A DNA stretch of 64,000 nt. Source: Agromyces sp. H17E-10 (GTDB lineage Bacteria > Actinomycetota > Actinomycetes > Actinomycetales > Microbacteriaceae). The translations under genes were made by a program, and so were the position numbers. Location of the stretch: positions 2,356,001-2,420,000 of the forward strand of contig NZ_CP095042.1 of the NCBI RefSeq assembly GCF_022919715.1, in the 5' to 3' direction. Positions 39,124 through 47,563 of the stretch are shown piece by piece. How positions within the stretch are numbered: the stretch's first letter is position 1; each line of letters begins with the position of its first letter. The notes beneath the pieces are model-generated. The model had not been told where the DNA came from. It ran no database searches and worked only from the letters and a program-made list of their open reading frames with translations.

Positions 39124-39320
39124 GCGGTCCCGAGAGCGACGAGCGTCGCGGCTTCTTCTCGCGGCCGACGGTGCGCCGCATCCTCTCCCGGATCGTGATC
39201 GCCGTCGGCATCGTGCTCGCCCTCATCGCGCTCGTGAGCGCGCGCTACGGCCTGCTGTTCGCGGCGGTCATCCTGGTCGGCCTCGGCGCCGCGCTCGGCC
39301 CGGCACGACTGCGCCGCTGA
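39120..39320 (+). CDS. Small membrane protein (66 aa)
   Basis: Basic N-terminus (MSGPESDERRGFFSRPTVRRILSR) then two helices (IVIAVGIVLALIALVSA, GLLFAAVILVGLGAALG) with a short RY loop. No family recognised. Start ATG 39120 overlaps the SDR stop TGA (39121-39123), so it is translated with it. Rest of the operon is SDR and chorismate mutase upstream. Confidence 0.78.
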   Translation: MSGPESDERRGFFSRPTVRRILSRIVIAVGIVLALIALVSARYGLLFAAVILVGLGAALGPARLRR

Positions 39321-39378
39321 CCACGACGCGTCGCCGCGGCATCCCGATCGGAACCGCGTCGCCGACCCGCCGCGCCCG

Positions 39379-39400
39379 GTTCACCGACCGGTAACCGCGG
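39379..39400 (+). promoter_or_regulatory. Possible PHO-box upstream of the phosphonate operon
   Basis: Two adjacent 11-mers GTTCACCGACC and GGTAACCGCGG, the first matching the GTTCACC half of actinobacterial PhoP boxes (11-base direct repeats). It lies 96 bases before phnD. Phosphonate genes are commonly PhoP-controlled, so this is a reasonable, unproven call. Confidence 0.45.
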
Positions 39401-39495
39401 CGACCCCGGGCGTTGGCGCCTGCTGCCTACCGTGAGGCATCGGACACGCACCGCCAGCGCCCGAGAGCCGGGCCGGCGTACACGAAAGGTCTCCG

Positions 39496-40431
39496 ATGCA
39501 CACCATCACCAAGAGCTGGACGGCCGTCGCAGCAGCGGCCCTCCTCACCGTCGGCCTCGCGGCCTGCACCTCGGCGAACGCCGCCGAGGACACCGGCGAC
39601 ACCGCGTCGAGCTCGAGCGAGGCGAAGTTCGCGGTCGACGAGAACACGCTCGTCTTCGGCGTCGTGCCCGACTCGGTCGACACCGAGACCAACTACCAGC
39701 CGCTCATGGACTACATCGCCGCCGAGACCGGCAAGACGGTCGAGTACCACGAGTCGACCGACTACGCCGCCCTCATCGAGGCCGCCGTCGCCGGCAAGAT
39801 CGACGTCGCGAGCTTCTCGGGCTTCACCTACGTCACCGCGACGAACAACGGCGCCGCGATCACGCCGATCTCGTCGATCGTCACCGCGGAGGGCCAGGAG
39901 CCCGGCTACTACTCGCAGGCCATCGTGCCCAAGGGCTCCGACATCACCGACCTCGCCGGCTTCAAGGGCAAGAAGGTCTGCTTCGTCGACCCGTCGTCGA
40001 CCTCGGGCTACCTGTTCCCGACCTACAACCTGCTCGAGGCGGGCATCGACCCCGAGACCGACATCACGCCGGTGTTCGCGGGAAAGCACGACGTCTCGGT
40101 CACGAAGACCGGTGAGGGCGTCGAGTGCGAGGCCGGCTTCGCCGAGGACAGCGAGGTCGCCAAGAGCGACAAGGTCGAGGTCGTCGCCGAGACCATGGTC
40201 CCCGGTGCCCCGATCGTCGTCTCCGACACCCTGCCCGACGAGCTGACGTCGCAGCTCACCGACATCCTCGGTGAGGTCACGATCGACGACATCATCGCCT
40301 CGGGCGTGAAGTCGGCCGACAGCGACGGCTTCCGCAGCGTGTTCTACGCGACGGTGCCCGTCGACGACGAGTACTACGACACGATCCGCGACATCTGCGA
40401 GAAGACCGAAGCGGAGCAGTGCCAGGGCTGA
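39496..40431 (+). CDS. phnD: Phosphonate/phosphite ABC transporter binding lipoprotein (311 aa)
   Basis: Captures phosphonates (or phosphite) outside the cell. Lipobox VGLAAC (Cys24), then a Ser/Ala/Asp tether. The body fits the PhnD family: LVFGVVPDSVDTETNYQPLMDYIAAETG (N-lobe), VASFSGFTYVTATNNGAAITPI, the pocket-forming loop, and CFVDPSSTSGYLFPTYNLLEAG, the family signature (SSTSGYLFP) that holds the phosphonate group. Start ATG 39496 has an RBS (GAAAGG). First gene of a six-gene operon (39496-46263) ending with phosphonate-degrading enzymes. Confidence 0.93.
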   Translation: MHTITKSWTAVAAAALLTVGLAACTSANAAEDTGDTASSSSEAKFAVDENTLVFGVVPDSVDTETNYQPLMDYIAAETGKTVEYHESTDYAALIEAAVAGKIDVASFSGFTYVTATNNGAAITPISSIVTAEGQEPGYYSQAIVPKGSDITDLAGFKGKKVCFVDPSSTSGYLFPTYNLLEAGIDPETDITPVFAGKHDVSVTKTGEGVECEAGFAEDSEVAKSDKVEVVAETMVPGAPIVVSDTLPDELTSQLTDILGEVTIDDIIASGVKSADSDGFRSVFYATVPVDDEYYDTIRDICEKTEAEQCQG

Positions 40432-40479
40432 CGCCCGACCGCTGAATCGCGACGCGCGCGCACGGACACGGAGACGGAC

Positions 40480-41373
40480 ATGCAACGAACGGACGAGGAC
40501 ATGAACGAGACCGCCGGCAGCCAGGGCGCACCGGTCATCGAGGTGGCGGGTGTCACCAAGGCGTTCGGGTCGACGATCGCGCTCCGGGATGCCTCGCTGG
40601 AGGTCTCCCAGGGCGAGATCGTCGTGCTCCTCGGCCTCTCGGGGTCGGGCAAGTCGACGCTCCTGCGTCACCTCGACGGTCTCGAGACCCCGACCTCCGG
40701 TTCCGTGCGCGTGCTCGGCCAGGAGGTGCCGCGCCTGTCGGGCCGGCGCCTCCGGGCCCTGCGCAGCCGCATCGGCTTCGTGTTCCAGCAGTTCGAACTG
40801 GTGCCGTCGCTCACGGTGCTCGAGAACGTGCTCACCGGGGCCCTCGCCGAGGTGCGCGGCCCGCGCCTCGGGCTCTGGAGCTACCCGCGGCGACTGAAGC
40901 TCGCGGCCCTCACCCACCTCGACCGGGTGGGCCTGCTCGACCGCGCCTACCAGCGCGCCGACACCCTCTCGGGCGGCCAGCAGCAGCGGGTCGCGATCGC
41001 CCGCGCCCTCATGCAGGACCCCGAGATCCTGCTCGCCGACGAGCCCGTCGCCTCGCTCGACCCCGAGTCGAGCGAGCAGGTCATGGCGCTCATCCGCGAG
41101 ATCGCGATGGACGCCGGGCTCACGGTCGTCTGCAGCCTGCACCAGGTCGACCTCGCCCTCGCGTGGGGCGACCGCATCGTCGGTCTCCGTCACGGCGAGG
41201 TCGTGCTGGACACGCCGGCCGAGGGGCTCTCGAAGGCCGAGGTCATGGAGATCTACGGCCGGGTCGCGACCGCGACCGCCGAGCTCGAGGCGATCGAGCG
41301 CGAGCTGACCACGGTGCCCGACCTGTTCGATGGCGAGCACCTCGCCGCCGAACCGGAGCCCGCCGGACGATGA
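40480..41373 (+). CDS. phnC: Phosphonate ABC transporter ATP-binding protein (297 aa)
   Basis: ATPase of the phosphonate importer. Walker A GLSGSGKST, Q-loop GFVFQQFELVPSLTVLENVL (typical PhnC), signature LSGGQQQRVAIARALMQDPEI, Walker B LLADEPVASLDPES and the H-loop SLHQVDLALAWGDRI. The start is uncertain between ATG 40480 and ATG 40501 (MNETAGS), both with purine-rich upstream bases. The stop overlaps the permease start by four bases (ATGA). It follows phnD after 48 bases. Confidence 0.93.
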   Translation: MQRTDEDMNETAGSQGAPVIEVAGVTKAFGSTIALRDASLEVSQGEIVVLLGLSGSGKSTLLRHLDGLETPTSGSVRVLGQEVPRLSGRRLRALRSRIGFVFQQFELVPSLTVLENVLTGALAEVRGPRLGLWSYPRRLKLAALTHLDRVGLLDRAYQRADTLSGGQQQRVAIARALMQDPEILLADEPVASLDPESSEQVMALIREIAMDAGLTVVCSLHQVDLALAWGDRIVGLRHGEVVLDTPAEGLSKAEVMEIYGRVATATAELEAIERELTTVPDLFDGEHLAAEPEPAGR

Positions 41374-43046
41374 CCGCACTCCTCGCCCCGGAGCAACGGC
41401 CGGCCGCGGCATCCCCGGGCGGTTCGATCGCCGAGCGCGCGCCGCGCCGCGTCGTCTCGCCCGAGCGCATCGCAGCGGCGCTGACGCTCGTCGTGATCGT
41501 CGGCCTGGCGGTCGTCGCCGTCGCGCAGTCGGGCATCTCGATCTCGGGCATGATCGACAGCTGGGACAACGCCGAGCGATTCTTCGCCCGCGTCGGCCCC
41601 ATCACCTTCCCTGAGCCGGCCGAGCTCGCGTACCTCACCGCGCTCACCGTCGGCCTCGTGCTCTGCGGCACCCTGCTCGCCGCCGTGATCTCGGTGCCCG
41701 TCGCCTACCTCTCGGCCGCGAACACGACGCCCGGCCCCGGCTGGCGCGCCCTCGGACGCTTCATCAGCGTGCTCACCCGGGCGGTGCCCGACGTCGTGCT
41801 CGCGATGGTGTTCGTGCTCATGTTCTCGCTCGGCACGCTGCCCGGCATCCTCGCGATCGGCATCCACTCGATCGGCATGATCTCGAAGCTCTTCGCCGAC
41901 GCCATCGAGCAGATCGACGAGGGGCCGCGGCTCGCCATCCGCGCGGCGGGCGGCTCGAGGTGGCAGGAGTTCACGAGCGGCATCCTGCCGCAGGTGCTGC
42001 CCTCGTGGGTCGCGACCGTGCTGCACCGCAACGACATCAACCTGCGCGGGTCGGTCGTGCTCGGCTACGTCGGCGTCGCGGGGCTCGGCCTCGAGATGTC
42101 GTTCGCCTTCAAGTCGCTGAACTACTCGCTGGGCATCGGCATCGCGATCGTCATGTTCGCCCTCTGCGTCGTCATGGAGATCATCTCGAGCGCGGTGCGC
42201 AAGGCGATGCTCACGGGCGGCCGCTCCTCGGGCGGGCCGCTCACGGCCTCGACTCCGGATGCCGCGATCCGACGTCCGTGGACCGGATCACGCGTGCGCA
42301 ATGTCGTCTGGGGGTGGATCGCCGCCGCGGTCGTCGTCGGCAGCATCGCCATCTGCGACATCCAGTGGGGCGACCTCGTCACCGTGTGGGCGAAGATCCC
42401 CGCGGTCGCCGTGCAGTTCTGGCCGCCGGGCTTCGGCAGCTACGACGCGGAGACCATGTTCGGGGCGATGGGCCAGACCATCGGCATCGCGCTCGCCGCG
42501 ACGCTGCTCGCACTCGTCGTCTCGGTCGTCGTGGGCTCGCTCGCGGCCCGCAACGTCGCGCCGAACGGCACGACGCGCACGTCGATGCGGTTCCTGCTCG
42601 TCGCCATCCGCGGCGTGCCCGAGGTGATCCTCGCCATCGTGCTCATCGTCATCACGGGGCTCGGCGCCCAGGCCGGCACCCTCGCGCTCGCGTTCGGCGG
42701 CATCGGCCTCGCGGGCAAGCTCATCGCCGACTCGTTCGAGGAGGTGAAGGCCGGACCCGAGCGTGCGCTCGCCGCCACCGGCGCGAGTCGCGGCCAGGTG
42801 TACGCCTCCGCGACGCTGCCGCAGGGCACGCCCGCGCTCATCGGGCACGGCTTCTACCTGCTCGACACGAACGTCCGCGCAGCGACCATCCTCGGCATCG
42901 TCGGCGGCGGCGGCATCGGCTACTACCTGCTCAACGCCGGACAGGGATCGAACTACCAGGTCGTCACCGCGATTGTGCTCATGATCCTCGTGACCGTGCT
43001 CGTCGTGGAGGGGGTCGCGATGTGGATGCGGCGGGTGTTCCGATGA
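41370..43046 (+). CDS. phnE: Phosphonate ABC transporter permease, fused two-domain PhnE (558 aa)
   Basis: Both membrane subunits in one chain. Copy 1 (about 40-270) and copy 2 (about 315-555) each show the permease core: first, RAVPDVVLAMVFVLMFSLG and the EAA-like loop DEGPRLAIRAAGGSRWQEF; second, RGVPEVILAIVLIVITGLG and EVKAGPERALAATGASRGQVY. They are joined by a linker rich in Gly, Ser and Thr near residues 280-305. Usual PhnE is a separate chain that dimerises; here the dimer is built in. Start ATG 41370 overlaps phnC. Confidence 0.92.
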   Translation: MTALLAPEQRPAAASPGGSIAERAPRRVVSPERIAAALTLVVIVGLAVVAVAQSGISISGMIDSWDNAERFFARVGPITFPEPAELAYLTALTVGLVLCGTLLAAVISVPVAYLSAANTTPGPGWRALGRFISVLTRAVPDVVLAMVFVLMFSLGTLPGILAIGIHSIGMISKLFADAIEQIDEGPRLAIRAAGGSRWQEFTSGILPQVLPSWVATVLHRNDINLRGSVVLGYVGVAGLGLEMSFAFKSLNYSLGIGIAIVMFALCVVMEIISSAVRKAMLTGGRSSGGPLTASTPDAAIRRPWTGSRVRNVVWGWIAAAVVVGSIAICDIQWGDLVTVWAKIPAVAVQFWPPGFGSYDAETMFGAMGQTIGIALAATLLALVVSVVVGSLAARNVAPNGTTRTSMRFLLVAIRGVPEVILAIVLIVITGLGAQAGTLALAFGGIGLAGKLIADSFEEVKAGPERALAATGASRGQVYASATLPQGTPALIGHGFYLLDTNVRAATILGIVGGGGIGYYLLNAGQGSNYQVVTAIVLMILVTVLVVEGVAMWMRRVFR

Positions 43047-44275
43047 GCCGCACGTTCGATGTCGCCGTCGTCGGGTCGGGGGTCGTCGGCCTCGGCGCCG
43101 CGCTCGCCGCACACCGTCGCGGTCAGCGGGTCGTCGTGATCGAACGGGGGTCGGAGCCGACCGGCGCGTCGATCCGCAACTTCGGCCACCTGTGCTTTAC
43201 GCCCCAGCACGGTCGTGCGCGCGAACTCGCCCTCGCCTCGCGCGAGATCTGGCTCGGACTCGCCCGCGACGCGGGCGTCTGGCTGCGCGAGTCGGGCACC
43301 CTCGTCGCCGCCCGTGCCGACGACGAGCTCGCGGTGCTCGGAGAGCTCGCGGCGCTGCGCGGCGACGAGGTCGAGCTGCTCGACGCCGCCGAGGCATCCC
43401 GCCGCATCCCGGCCGCACCGGGCTCGCTCGCCGGCGGCGCGCACCTGCCGCGCGACCTGCAGGCCAACCCGCGCCAGGCGCTCGGCGCGATCGCCGCGCG
43501 CCTCGAGGCGTCGGGCGTCGAGTTCCACCGCCGCACGAACGTCGCCCGCGTGCGGGGCTCACGTGCCGTCGGCCGCGTGCGGGGCTCACGTGCCGTCGGC
43601 GGCGGCGCGGCTGTCGTCGAGACGAGCCGCGGGCCGATCGAGGCCGGCGAGGTCGTCGTCGCGGTCAACCACGACGTCGACCTGCTCTACCCCGAGCTCG
43701 CCGAGGCGCACGGCATCGTGCGTTGCGGGCTCGACATGCTGCGCGTCTCGGCCAGGCTGTCGGCACCGCTCGAGGCGCCGCTGCTCACGGGCTGGTCGCT
43801 CGTGCGGTACGGCGCATTCGCCGCGACGGATGCCGCGACCCGGCTGCGCGAGCGCCTGCACGCCGAACGCCCCGACCTCGCGGCGCTCGACCTGAACCAG
43901 ATGTACACGCAGCTGCCCGACGGGTCGCTCATCGTGGGTGACACCCACTCCCGCGGCGAGGCGATCGAGCCGTTCCAGGGGGAGTCGGCGTTCGACGCGC
44001 TGCTCGAGGTGACCGCCGAGCTCTTCGGCGTGGCGCGCCCCCGGGTCATCGAACGGTGGCAGGGCGTCTACGCGTCGGGGCCTGACGAGTTCCTCGTCGA
44101 ACGCGTCGAACCGGGCGTGCACGTCGTCGCCGCGACGACCGGCATCGGCATGACCTGCGGGCTCGGCCTCGCCGAGCACGTCGTGCACCGCGCCCTCGAC
44201 GGCGAACCCGCGTCGAACGGGCTCGCGACGGGGCATCCCGCCACCCAGACCACCACCCAGGAAGGCCGATCATGA
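43043..44275 (+). CDS. FAD-dependent oxidoreductase of phosphonate catabolism, HpnW-like (TIGR03364) (410 aa)
   Basis: Resembles the D-amino-acid oxidase fold: FAD-binding VVGSGVVGLGAALAAHRRGQRVVVIER at residue 8-34, then ASIRNFGHLCFTPQ, and closing VVAATTGIGMTCGLGLAEHVV. Within this family the closest group I know is TIGR03364, which occurs next to a phosphonatase-like HAD protein (TIGR03351) and phosphonate transporters, exactly as here. Proposed to oxidise an aminophosphonate to an aldehyde (inference). Start ATG 43043 overlaps phnE. A perfect 27-bp tandem duplication (43547-43600) doubles RVRGSRAVG at about residue 169-186. Confidence 0.88.
   Translation: MSRTFDVAVVGSGVVGLGAALAAHRRGQRVVVIERGSEPTGASIRNFGHLCFTPQHGRARELALASREIWLGLARDAGVWLRESGTLVAARADDELAVLGELAALRGDEVELLDAAEASRRIPAAPGSLAGGAHLPRDLQANPRQALGAIAARLEASGVEFHRRTNVARVRGSRAVGRVRGSRAVGGGAAVVETSRGPIEAGEVVVAVNHDVDLLYPELAEAHGIVRCGLDMLRVSARLSAPLEAPLLTGWSLVRYGAFAATDAATRLRERLHAERPDLAALDLNQMYTQLPDGSLIVGDTHSRGEAIEPFQGESAFDALLEVTAELFGVARPRVIERWQGVYASGPDEFLVERVEPGVHVVAATTGIGMTCGLGLAEHVVHRALDGEPASNGLATGHPATQTTTQEGRS
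43547..43600 (+). repeat. Perfect 27-bp tandem duplication in the oxidoreductase gene
   Basis: The 27-mer beginning CGCGTGCGGGGCTCACG occurs at 43547-43573 and again at 43574-43600 with no mismatch, in frame, adding nine residues (RVRGSRAVG twice). Both copies are identical, so the duplication is recent. Confidence 0.95.
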
Positions 44276-45075
44276 CCATCGACACCCGCGAAGAGACGCG
44301 CCCCGAGCTCGGGCTCGAGACCGACGACGAGCTCGCAGAGCTCGACGAGGCCGCGGAGCTCGCCGACCCCGACGACCTCGACGACGAGGACGGCGAGATC
44401 GAGCTCATCGTGCTCGACATGGCCGGCACGACCGTCGTCGACGACGGCGTCGTCGAGCGGGCGTTCGCGCTTGCCGCCGAGCGCAGCGGCATCATCGCCG
44501 AGGGCGGCGACTTCGATGAGGCGCTGCAGTACGTGCGCGACACCATGGGGCAGTCGAAGATCGAGGTCTTCCGGGTGCTCGCCGACGGCGATGAGGATGC
44601 GGCCCAGCACGCGAACGCCGAGTTCGAGGGCGCCTACGCCGAGCTCGTCGCGAGCGAGGGCGTGGCCGAGATCCCAGGTGCGGCGCGCGTGATCACGCGG
44701 TTGCGCGACGCCGGTGCCTCCGTCGTGCTGACGACCGGGTTCTCGCCCGTCACGCGCGACGCCCTGCTCGACGCGCTCGACTGGCGCGGGCTCGCCGATC
44801 TTGCCCTCTCGCCCGCCGACGCCGGGCGCGGACGTCCGTACCCCGACCTGCCGCTCACCGCGCTGCTGCGCACCGAGACGAGCTCGGTGGAGGCGATGGT
44901 CGTCGTCGGCGACACCGTCAGCGACATCGAGTCGGGCGTCGCTGCAGGCGCCGGTCTCGTCGTCGGCGTGCTGACCGGCGCGCACGACCGCGACTCGCTC
45001 GAGGCCGCCGGGGCCGACGCCGTCATCGCGAGCGTCGCCGAACTGCCGGCGCTGCTCGGCCTGCACGGCGAGTAG
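44272..45075 (+). CDS. Phosphonatase-like HAD hydrolase (TIGR03351, PhnX-related) (267 aa)
   Basis: Likely breaks the C-P bond of a phosphono-aldehyde. The nucleophile motif is DMAGTT (Asp49) with Ala at position +2 where most HAD phosphatases have Asp: the PhnX pattern. K97 in the cap (TMGQSKIEVFR) aligns with the Schiff-base lysine of PhnX (MG..K). Later motifs: TTGFSP (motif II), GRPYPD (motif III) and VVGDTVSDIESGVAAGAG (motif IV). Unusual: about 40 acidic residues precede the first motif (TDDELAELDEAAELADPD). Start ATG 44272 overlaps the FAD enzyme by four bases. Confidence 0.88.
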   Translation: MTIDTREETRPELGLETDDELAELDEAAELADPDDLDDEDGEIELIVLDMAGTTVVDDGVVERAFALAAERSGIIAEGGDFDEALQYVRDTMGQSKIEVFRVLADGDEDAAQHANAEFEGAYAELVASEGVAEIPGAARVITRLRDAGASVVLTTGFSPVTRDALLDALDWRGLADLALSPADAGRGRPYPDLPLTALLRTETSSVEAMVVVGDTVSDIESGVAAGAGLVVGVLTGAHDRDSLEAAGADAVIASVAELPALLGLHGE

Positions 45076-45084
45076 GGGGAGCCG

Positions 45085-46263
45085 ATGCACACCGTCGTGC
45101 GCGTCGCGGGGCCCGACCTGCTGCTGCGACCCGCCCCGGTCGCGATGGTCTGGTACGAACCGGGCCGGGCGCACGAGGCGCTCGCGGCGCCCGGCGTGCG
45201 ACTGTCGCCGGGTGAGGCGCTCGTCGAGGTCGAGCTGGCGACCGTCTGCGGATCCGACGTGCACACCGTGCGCGGCGACCGGCCGGCGCCGGCGCCGCTC
45301 GTGCTCGGCCACGAGCAGGTCGGTCGCATCGTCGCGGTCGGCGACGGTGCGGTGCGCGCCGACGGCTCGGCGCTCGAGCTCGGCGACCGCGTGGTGTGGT
45401 CGGTCGCGGTGAGCTGCGGCGACTGCGACCGCTGCCGGCGCGGACTCGAGCAGAAGTGCCGGGCGCTCGCCAAGTACGGCCACGAGCGGGTGCACCGGGG
45501 CTGGGAGCTCTCGGGCGGCTTCGCCACGCACGTGCAGCTCAAGTCGGGCACCGCCGTGGTGCGCGTGAGCGAGGAGCTTCCGGCCCTCGTCGCCGCGCCC
45601 GTCTCGTGCGCGACCGCGACCGCCGTCGCCGCGCTCGACGCGGCCTCGGCGCACGTGCCGCTCACCGGCAACGCCGTGCTCGTCACGGGCGGCGGCATGA
45701 TCGGGCTCAGCGTCGCCGCGATCGCGCGCGAGGCCGGTGCCGAGGTGATCGTCTCCGAACCGGATGCCTCGCGGCGAGAGTTCGCCCGTCGACTGGGTGC
45801 GCTCGTGGCCGACCCGCGGGCGCCACGCGGCGGACCCGAGCACCTCGACACGGTGATCGAGCGCCTCGCAGCCCGCGGCATCCCCGAGCTGCTCGTCGCC
45901 GTCGAGGCGTCGGGTGCGGCCCCGGCCGTGCGTGCGGCCGTCGACGCGGTCGGCGTCGGCGGCGTCGCCGTGCTCGTCGGCAGCGTGTCGCCCGGCACCG
46001 AGTTGCGGCTCGACCCCGAACGGCTCGTGCGCGGGCTCGTGACGATCACCGGTGTGCACAACTACACGGGCGCGCAGCTCGAGCGGGCGGTCGCCTTCCT
46101 CGAGCGGTCGTGGCGGTCGCTGCCGCTCGACGAGCTCGTCGGCATCACCCACGGGCTCGACGAGCTCGATCGCGCCCTCGCCGAGGCGGCGACGGGTGAG
46201 TACGTGCGGGTCGGCGTCGCGCCGGGGCGGCGTACCGTGCCGCATCCGGTCGAGCGCGGCTGA
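45085..46263 (+). CDS. Zinc-dependent alcohol dehydrogenase of phosphonate catabolism, HpnZ-like (TIGR03366) (392 aa)
   Basis: Medium-chain dehydrogenase. Catalytic zinc site: Cys55 in VCGSDVH and GHE at 75-77. Structural zinc loop CGDCDRCRRGLEQKC. Rossmann cofactor motif near AVLVTGGGMIGLSVAAIAREAG. Equivalent genes sit in operons with TIGR03351 and TIGR03364, where they are annotated as the putative phosphonate-catabolism alcohol dehydrogenase, so it probably acts on a hydroxy-phosphonate or on the aldehyde product. Start ATG 45085 with an RBS (GGGGAG) 10 bases after the HAD gene. Last gene of the operon. Confidence 0.85.
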   Translation: MHTVVRVAGPDLLLRPAPVAMVWYEPGRAHEALAAPGVRLSPGEALVEVELATVCGSDVHTVRGDRPAPAPLVLGHEQVGRIVAVGDGAVRADGSALELGDRVVWSVAVSCGDCDRCRRGLEQKCRALAKYGHERVHRGWELSGGFATHVQLKSGTAVVRVSEELPALVAAPVSCATATAVAALDAASAHVPLTGNAVLVTGGGMIGLSVAAIAREAGAEVIVSEPDASRREFARRLGALVADPRAPRGGPEHLDTVIERLAARGIPELLVAVEASGAAPAVRAAVDAVGVGGVAVLVGSVSPGTELRLDPERLVRGLVTITGVHNYTGAQLERAVAFLERSWRSLPLDELVGITHGLDELDRALAEAATGEYVRVGVAPGRRTVPHPVERG

Positions 46264-46312
46264 GGGGCCGATCGATTACCGCTCCGCCCGGCGCACGCGG
46301 CACCATGGTGGC

Positions 46313-46855
46313 ATGACGGATGCCACGGGGTCGGCGTCGGCCGGAGCGGTGATCGAGCGGGTTCGGGCGTCGTTCGCCGCGGCCGCCGCGAGCCTCGCCG
46401 CAGCGGGCGCGCGCACCGAAGTGCTCGCCGAGCTCGTCGAGCCGAAGCGCGTGCTCGGCATCGCCAGGGCGCCGCGGATGGCGCAGCTCGGCCGTGTGTG
46501 GCGTCTCGGCGTGCTGCTCGTCGCGTCCGACGGCTCGGCGTACGCCACCGGACACGTCGTACGTGCCGAGCTGCCCGCGCGACGCAGCGTGCTCGCCGAC
46601 AGCGTCGCCGAGCACCGCGCATGGCAGGCCGCCGCTGTGCGCGGAGGCATCGCCGAGGGCGAGACCGTCGACTTCGATGCCGCACCCGTCGACCTCGATA
46701 CGCTCGGTCGCGACGGGGTCTCGGGGCCGCTGGTCGTGCGCGACGGTGACGCGTTCGTGCGCTGGAACCCGAACCAGCCCGACGCGCTCGCCGAGCTCGA
46801 GCGGTACCTCGCCGACCGGGTCGGCCTGCTCGTCGAACCACCCGCGGGAGCCTGA
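46313..46855 (+). CDS. Hypothetical cytosolic protein (180 aa)
   Basis: No signal peptide, no helix for the membrane. N-terminal amphipathic helix (AVIERVRASFAAAAASLAAAG), a middle with beta strands (VWRLGVLLVASDGSAYATGHVVRAELPARRSVLADS) and an acidic/basic C-terminus (RWNPNQPDALAELERYLADRV). I do not recognise a domain; the strand pattern with LGVLLVASDGSAYATGHVVRA is that of glutaminase-like or unknown actinobacterial proteins, without enough to name it. Start ATG 46313. It follows the HpnZ-like gene by 50 bases on the same strand and may be part of its transcript. Confidence 0.68.
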   Translation: MTDATGSASAGAVIERVRASFAAAAASLAAAGARTEVLAELVEPKRVLGIARAPRMAQLGRVWRLGVLLVASDGSAYATGHVVRAELPARRSVLADSVAEHRAWQAAAVRGGIAEGETVDFDAAPVDLDTLGRDGVSGPLVVRDGDAFVRWNPNQPDALAELERYLADRVGLLVEPPAGA

Positions 46856-46897
46856 GGCCCCAGCCGCCGATTGCGGCCGGTCGCTAGGGTGGCGCTT

Positions 46898-47563
46898 GTG
46901 AGGTGGTACCGGAGCGAGGGTGCACGTGAATTCGTGGTGGCCGCCAACGACGGCATCATCGGCACCGCTGGCGTGCTGCAGGGCTTCGCCGGAGCCGGTG
47001 CCTCGAGCACCACCCTGCTCGTCGCCTCCGTCTCGGCGATGGTCGCGGGCGCCGTCGCCGGCTTCGGTTCGAAGTACGCCGAGCTCGCGGCGGAGCGCGA
47101 CGCCCAGCAGGCACTCATCGCGGACGAGGCGAGCGACCTCGCGAGTGACGACGCCGATGAGCTCGCCGACCTGGCCGAGCACTTCGAGGAGCGGGGCGTG
47201 CCCGGGCCGCTCGCGGAGGAGGTCGCGAGCGAGATGCACCGCCACGAACCGCTCGCGGCCCACCTCGAGACCGAGCACGGGATCACGGAACCGATGCGCG
47301 CACTCCAGCCCCTCGCGGGCGGGGCGATGAACGCGCTGGCGCTCGCGAGCGGGTCGGCACTGCCGTTGCTCATCCTGCTCGCCTATCCCGCCGCGTGGGA
47401 GTCCTGGGCGGTCTTCGTCGCCGTCCTCGTGTCGCTCGCGGTCACGAGCATGCTCGTCGCCGTCTCCGCGAGGACATCGGTGCCCCGTGCGCTCACGAGG
47501 ACGATCGGCATCGGTGCCGCGACGATGCTGCTCAGCTACCTCGCCGGTGTGCTCATCTTCTGA
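46898..47563 (+). CDS. VIT1/CCC1-family transporter (221 aa)
   Basis: Membrane protein of the vacuolar-iron-transporter-like family, probably moving Fe2+ or Mn2+. EGAREFVVAANDGIIGTAGVLQGFAGAGA is the family's first helix with the NDGIIGTAGVLQG signature; then AVAGFGSKYAELAAERDAQQALIADEA leads to a cytoplasmic helical segment with many acidic residues (the metal-carrying part in relatives), and last three helices. GTG 46898 is the better start because it begins directly at the conserved VRWYRSEGAREF; a GTG or ATG-type codon 27 bases upstream is also open. Confidence 0.85.
   Translation: MRWYRSEGAREFVVAANDGIIGTAGVLQGFAGAGASSTTLLVASVSAMVAGAVAGFGSKYAELAAERDAQQALIADEASDLASDDADELADLAEHFEERGVPGPLAEEVASEMHRHEPLAAHLETEHGITEPMRALQPLAGGAMNALALASGSALPLLILLAYPAAWESWAVFVAVLVSLAVTSMLVAVSARTSVPRALTRTIGIGAATMLLSYLAGVLIF

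Follow-up and report, generated by a model that had tools for sequence, protein, structure and literature searches.

In the described PhnWX and PhnWYA pathways, phosphonoacetaldehyde (PAA) is the central intermediate, and the PhnY-PhnA route takes it through phosphonoacetate to acetate and phosphate. The transaminase PhnW, which acts on 2-aminoethylphosphonate (AEP), can be replaced. Flavin (FAD) enzymes classed as PbfC or PbfD convert N-methyl-AEP to PAA (Zangelmi et al. 2023, PMC10590968). In that paper, PbfD1 of Acinetobacter baumannii, annotated TIGR03364, is among the N-methyl-AEP oxidisers; PbfD2 takes the place of PhnW and acts well on AEP too, although its efficiency is about four-fold lower than with N-methyl-AEP; and the commonest neighbour of pbfD genes outside the D1 group is phnX alone. 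A 2024 study of Achromobacter again has HpnW replacing PhnW, with substrates predicted in silico (PMC11203657). For 2-hydroxyethylphosphonate (HEP), which has been reported in marine organic matter, the published route is carbon-phosphorus (C-P) lyase, which yields ethylene (PMC5649143). The Pbf enzymes are stated not to oxidise HEP, on data that the authors do not show (PMC10590968). Here, we analyse a phosphonate operon in a 64,000-nucleotide stretch of the genome of the soil bacterium Agromyces sp. H17E-10 (contig NZ_CP095042.1; hereafter the window), in which a PhnDCE importer, an FAD oxidase (HpnW) and a PhnX-like hydrolase are encoded together with a zinc dehydrogenase, HpnZ. On balance, we lean slightly towards HpnZ (TIGR03366) being an HEP dehydrogenase that would define a hydrolytic, C-P-lyase-independent HEP route. 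In this route, HEP would be oxidised to PAA, which PhnX, a PhnX-like enzyme, or an aldehyde dehydrogenase (ALDH) plus PhnA would then process, in Actinomycetota, Planctomycetota, Bacteroidota and other phyla; in the window it would be combined with an oxidase branch.

The six genes lie on the + strand: a phnD-like gene for a phosphonate/phosphite-type substrate-binding lipoprotein (39496..40431), phnC for the ATPase (40480..41373), a fused phnE-phnE permease gene (41370..43046), hpnW for a PbfD-type FAD amine oxidase (43043..44275), a gene for a PhnX-like haloacid dehalogenase-type (HAD) hydrolase, a candidate PAA hydrolase (44272..45075), and hpnZ for a zinc dehydrogenase of the medium-chain dehydrogenase/reductase (MDR) type, the proposed HEP dehydrogenase (45085..46263). 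ATGA overlaps at the phnC/phnE, phnE/hpnW and hpnW/phnX-like junctions suggest coupled translation, and nine bases separate the phnX-like stop from the hpnZ start. PhnC scores 290.0 against TIGR02315 (cut-off 266.1). PhnE matches TIGR01097 (422.4 bits, cut-off 216.7) and PF00528 in two stretches each and is thus a fused double permease. PhnD exceeds the general phosphate/phosphite/phosphonate model TIGR01098 (158.3 bits, cut-off 112.05), matches PF12974 (159.3) and falls short of the PhnD equivalog TIGR03431 (136.4 versus 261.1); its nearest Protein Data Bank (PDB) sequences are of the PtxB and PhnD types, which do not distinguish phosphite from phosphonate binding. Five of the six proteins score above the cut-off of a specific curated NCBIfam model, PhnD passing the general model only, and the curated cut-offs of TIGR03351, TIGR03364 and TIGR03366 are all exceeded within this one operon. 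Coordinates, strand and these scores confirm the gene content that an earlier note had read from the sequence. The D-EE-W-X-Z order recurs in 25 fetched loci (21 on the locus + strand and 4 on −; the window is included and at least one genome is counted twice), so the arrangement is not due to chance.

The oxidase half of the operon resembles the PbfD2-PhnX pathway (PMC10590968) in the FAD oxidase that replaces PhnW, in the predicted delivery of PAA to a PAA hydrolase, and in a genome without PhnW. It differs in having a TIGR03351 rather than a TIGR01422 hydrolase, a PhnDCE importer, an added HpnZ and an actinobacterial host. HpnW scores 371.2 against TIGR03364 (cut-off 285.1) and 146.2 against PF01266 (scanned minus the first Met), and the PhnX-like gene is directly downstream. 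The window's HpnW shares 24% identity with a homologue from an A. baumannii record; with planctomycete homologues the figure is 30-34%. In a fasttree phylogeny with weak deep branches, from which M. fucicola PbfD2 was absent, its affinity to PbfD1 or PbfD2 is not settled. By analogy with the characterised relatives, we infer that it oxidises N-methyl-AEP and/or AEP to PAA. The PbfC and PbfD chemistry thus supports the earlier note's suggestion that an FAD oxidase takes the transaminase's place; its further step, to a substituted aminophosphonate, is not required, since plain AEP would do (PMC10590968). The absence of PhnW also stood: the window's genome (4.25 Mb, one contig) yielded nothing to TIGR02326 at 1e-50, and no match exceeded the cut-off in a class sample of 296 genomes that includes it. 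Compared with PhnWX and PhnWYA, entry to PAA here would be by amine oxidation and, as we propose, alcohol oxidation. The importer is of the PhnDCE type, as with C-P lyase, but no PhnJ match was found in the window's genome (an E. coli control was detected). Within hpnW there is also an exact 27-base tandem duplication (43547-43600), which encodes RVRGSRAVG twice.

The PhnX-like protein exceeds the cut-off of TIGR03351 (225.9 versus 218.9) and misses that of the true PhnX model, TIGR01422 (79.9 versus 220). Asp49 and Lys96, which we take to be the nucleophile and the cap lysine of PhnX catalysis, are invariant in a 20-sequence alignment that includes one protein over the TIGR01422 cut-off. In a larger alignment of 111 rows, Asp49 is kept in 110 and the cap residue Lys96 in 107. 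Lys96 shares its column with a lysine of a TIGR01422 PhnX and is presumably the equivalent of Lys53, the Schiff-base residue of Bacillus cereus PhnX, which fits the shared MG..K motif. The enzyme likely acts on PAA. Because HpnZ and HpnW partner labels are mixed on the 111-row tree (12 HpnZ changes and 15 HpnW changes), it has probably kept one substrate throughout; both Prescottella defluvii copies belong to a five-row clade (support 91) with members from both kinds of cluster. At its N-terminus the window protein is extended by about 40 residues of acidic character (44272-44394), as are two aligned Agromyces-type relatives, at loci L071 and L101. Elsewhere, solitary PhnX-like genes at L083 and L089, in two genomes, are near the same gene set (families c52-c57), possibly an integrated mobile element.

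HpnZ exceeds the cut-off of TIGR03366 (355.7 versus 328.1), a model whose name goes no further than 'putative phosphonate catabolism associated alcohol dehydrogenase'. Its distribution was examined in the class sample, where 39 genomes had HpnW, 37 PhnX-like, 16 HpnZ and none PhnW over cut-off. We fetched 40 regions around matches and 20 more (15 from the class sample), covering all listed HpnW and HpnZ places over cut-off and leaving out nine PhnX-like places (1e-40) without adjoining HpnW or HpnZ. A home-made gene caller was used on the first 40 regions and the window, and all regions were scored with profiles built here. Among class-sample clusters with a transporter that could be recognised, HpnZ was present in 17 of 18 PhnDCE clusters and in 0 of 23 clusters with other transporters (Fisher p 1.2e-10, descent ignored). 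Of these 23, 14 share one transporter type, 8 share another, and 1 has a divergent PhnDE. A scanned example of the 14-member type matches the AEP importer proteins PhnS (NF011620 445.9, cut-off 310) and PhnU (290.8, cut-off 283.45), with PhnT and PhnV matches below cut-off; the c15-type transporter is weakly PhnS-like (75.5 versus 310).

HpnZ also occurs apart from the oxidase. A scan of named genomes with an HpnZ alignment contributed the best 80 of 466 matches (from Actinomycetota, Planctomycetota, Bacteroidota, Verrucomicrobiota and others). Together with the loci of the class sample and three additional regions, these make up 103 HpnZ loci (including the duplicates L178 = L109, L208 = L181 and L111 = L101). 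Within 8 kb of HpnZ, PhnX or a PhnX-like enzyme was found at 71 of the 103 loci, PhnA at 6 and neither at 26. Among the 71, HpnW is present at 56 (one of which also has PhnW), PhnW alone at 2 and neither at 13; of the 6 PhnA loci, HpnW accompanies 1, and the other 5 are without both HpnW and PhnW. Thus, 18 of the 77 loci with a cleaving enzyme, from 15 genomes, lack HpnW and PhnW within 8 kb (13 with PhnX or PhnX-like and 5 with PhnA). A genome-wide check of 14 of these genomes (L177 was left out) found neither HpnW nor PhnW above cut-off anywhere in 7 (G031, G066, G209 = G306, G305, G299, G226 and G318), HpnW elsewhere in 6 (G296, G297, G303, G304, G312 and G313), and PhnW elsewhere on the same contig in Caldithrix (G302). 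Separate HpnW-X and HpnZ-X pairs, X being PhnX-like, occur in Prescottella defluvii (L205 and L173), Pseudonocardia spinosispora (L206 and L134) and Algoriphagus marincola (L207 and L160), the HpnW-linked PhnX-like protein of the last scoring 199.6, below the 218.9 cut-off. At a planctomycete locus (L140), HpnZ stands beside a true PhnX (TIGR01422 327.0, cut-off 220).

The cleaving enzyme can be PhnA instead. HpnZ, PhnA and an ALDH occur together at L146, L147, L183, L189, L224 and L225; PhnA exceeds its curated cut-off (407.55) at all four loci scanned (L146, L189, L224 and L225) and was assigned by profiles built here at L147 and L183. In Agromyces fucosus, there is an HpnW-X pair and, at another place, PhnA (466.6)-MFS-HpnZ-ALDH, MFS being a major facilitator superfamily transporter. 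A Verrucomicrobium sp. has PhnA (486.1)-MFS-HpnZ and an ALDH that scores 621.0 with the PhnY model, just under the cut-off of 635.65; the ALDHs of the other three scanned clusters match general ALDH models better than PhnY. Divergent HpnZ proteins in G226 and G209 precede ALDH and the phosphonoacetate hydrolase PhnA (538.2 and 537.8), in clusters (L224:9487-13474 and L225:9605-13581) whose genomes are without HpnW or PhnW above cut-off. The MFS neighbours at L146 and L189 match organophosphate antiporter models below cut-off; NCBIfam gave nothing at 1e-15 for those at L148, L160 and L176, and a PDB sequence search with the L148 protein was empty. HpnZ tracks PhnDCE and a C-P-cleaving enzyme and not the oxidase, a pattern suggestive of an alcohol phosphonate. 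HEP would be the simplest substrate: a single oxidation of its primary alcohol would give PAA, and the Pbf enzymes reportedly do not handle it. In Maribellus (L155:4181-9020), a sulfatase-family hydrolase and an isomerase-like protein accompany PhnX-like and HpnZ; the hydrolase is weakly similar to phosphonate/sulfate ester hydrolases and might release HEP from esters. In Phytoactinopolyspora (L109/L178), phnE and hpnZ may be fused: they share one open frame, which contains masked bases.

Residue conservation is consistent with such a substrate. The window HpnZ has both its catalytic and its structural zinc ligands. In a set of 98 HpnZ sequences (matches below 270 bits or 300 residues dropped, some genomes represented twice), Cys55, His76 and Glu77 are conserved in 98 of 98 and Cys111, Cys114, Cys117 and Cys125 in 92 of 98. 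Near-invariant basic residues (Arg66 in 97, Lys or Arg130 in 98, His133 in 98 and His325 in 97) suggest an anionic substrate. This basic set is absent from 11 of 14 relatives below the TIGR03366 cut-off; the three that keep it are the two PhnA-linked genes and L226, which has no known partners nearby. Positions 66, 130 and 325 presumably correspond to Leu57, Leu116 and Ile318 in the substrate pocket of horse liver alcohol dehydrogenase, by motif alignment from their offsets to the zinc cysteines. A structure model (mean pLDDT 92.4) has the fold of MDR dehydrogenases. Among its matches, at rank 7 and 24% identity, is the dihydroxypropanesulfonate dehydrogenase HpsP (8wwd), whose substrate is a sulfonate, not a phosphonate. 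HpsP has a zinc MDR fold and makes an aldehyde from the primary alcohol group of its short sulfonate substrate (PMC11131964).

Taken together, these observations of genes, family scores, contexts and residues lead us to view the operon, with moderate confidence, as serving phosphorus scavenging: a single importer and a single C-P-cleaving enzyme would be shared by two entry enzymes, both of which would yield PAA. PhnD-PhnC-fused PhnE would import phosphonates. HpnW would oxidise N-methyl-AEP and/or AEP to PAA, methylamine or ammonia, and H2O2, as shown for its relatives, and HpnZ, zinc dependent and probably NAD linked, would oxidise HEP to the same PAA. The PhnX-like enzyme would form a Schiff base between PAA and its cap lysine and release acetaldehyde and phosphate, and this hydrolysis would pull the HpnZ step forward. 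PhnW would be dispensable in such a scheme. All of this chemistry is predicted from sequence. The earlier note's reading is supported in part: it missed the probable non-amino, alcohol phosphonate to which the HpnZ context points, and the dehydrogenase that it had left without a step now has a proposed one, HEP to PAA.

HpnZ could instead act downstream, reducing the acetaldehyde from the PhnX-like enzyme to ethanol in an operon for AEP and N-methyl-AEP only. Acetaldehyde from PhnX does need further processing (PMC10590968), and HpnZ is a zinc alcohol dehydrogenase encoded beside the hydrolase. However, in the HpnZ-PhnA clusters with ALDH an acetaldehyde reductase would be without a task, because the PhnY-PhnA route should yield no acetaldehyde; HpnZ is missing from all 23 other-transporter clusters holding X and/or HpnW, where the same acetaldehyde is expected; and its basic residues suggest an anionic substrate. 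We consider acetaldehyde disposal improbable. Less probable still is a route in which HpnW converts 1-hydroxy-2-aminoethylphosphonate to hydroxy-PAA, the hydrolase releases glycolaldehyde, and HpnZ reduces this to glycol, a step that we take to be the idea in the TIGRFAM family notes and from which our proposal for the TIGR03351/TIGR03364/TIGR03366 set (PhnX-like, HpnW_proposed and HpnZ_proposed) differs. The TIGR03364 description, as quoted in PMC10590968, does name 1-hydroxy-AEP as a possible substrate, but the PbfD enzymes characterised there prefer N-methyl-AEP and make PAA, and HpnZ occurs without HpnW and with true PhnX or PhnA. We give somewhat more room, while still thinking it unlikely, to HpnZ acting on another hydroxylated phosphonate, such as 2-hydroxypropyl- or dihydroxypropylphosphonate, or on an unrelated substrate and being merely carried along. 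Threonine- and polyol-type MDR dehydrogenases are near HpnZ in sequence and fold, and lone HpnZ genes exist; against this, a ketone product would be unsuited to PhnX or PhnY, and HpnZ is linked to PAA-handling enzymes in several phyla.

Several observations weigh against HpnZ as an HEP dehydrogenase. The association of HpnZ with transporter type is clustered by descent: among class rows of the X tree, four independent pairs were supported (mean 2.9 concordant, 0 discordant, p 0.25), and among all rows there were six pairs, four of them concordant (p 0.125). One PhnDCE cluster (G138) has HpnW without HpnZ. HpnZ itself was the reason for fetching most of the 103 loci, so the shares given above are not those of a random sample. 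Among the seven genomes with neither HpnW nor PhnW above cut-off, four come with a completeness figure (93-100%) and three (G305, G299 and G318) do not, and other PAA producers (PbfA, PbfB, PbfC and TIGR03301) were not searched. The pocket placement of the basic residues rests on the numbering of the horse liver enzyme and not on coordinates. Among the 26 HpnZ loci without a cleaving enzyme within 8 kb, 15 also have no phosphonate-type transporter, whereas a PhnDCE or antiporter-like gene is nearby at 11. In 13 of the 26 cases the genome holds a PhnX or PhnX-like match at another place; in the other 13 none was found at the thresholds used (PhnA was not searched genome-wide), and these include five actinobacteria (G325, G326, G328, G330 and G331; threshold 1e-22). 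At the site that the operon takes up in the window, Agromyces ramosus has hpnZ alone, and G117 has a second, lone hpnZ there besides a full operon elsewhere; in these two Agromyces-type genomes, the lone genes lie at L072:8549-9826 and L110:8001-9155. Such solitary copies may be relics, or HpnZ may serve some further purpose.

Around the operon, a scan of 39300-46400 found no sigma-70-like promoter, and no GntR gene adjoins the operon in the window, in contrast to many relatives. A VIT-family gene (PF01988) lies downstream at 46889-47563.

The replacement of a transaminase by an oxidase is already published, and the role of HpnZ is the new part; we found neither an HEP dehydrogenase in catabolism nor a role for HpnZ in the open-licence PMC literature. 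Should that role prove false, the oxidase half would remain an actinobacterial example of a published pathway. If it is true, a family named only for its association with phosphonate catabolism would gain a function and a simple assay, and a two-enzyme HEP route to phosphate and acetaldehyde, without ethylene, would change the genome-based reading of HEP use. Amino- and hydroxyethylphosphonates would then be served by one importer and one hydrolase.

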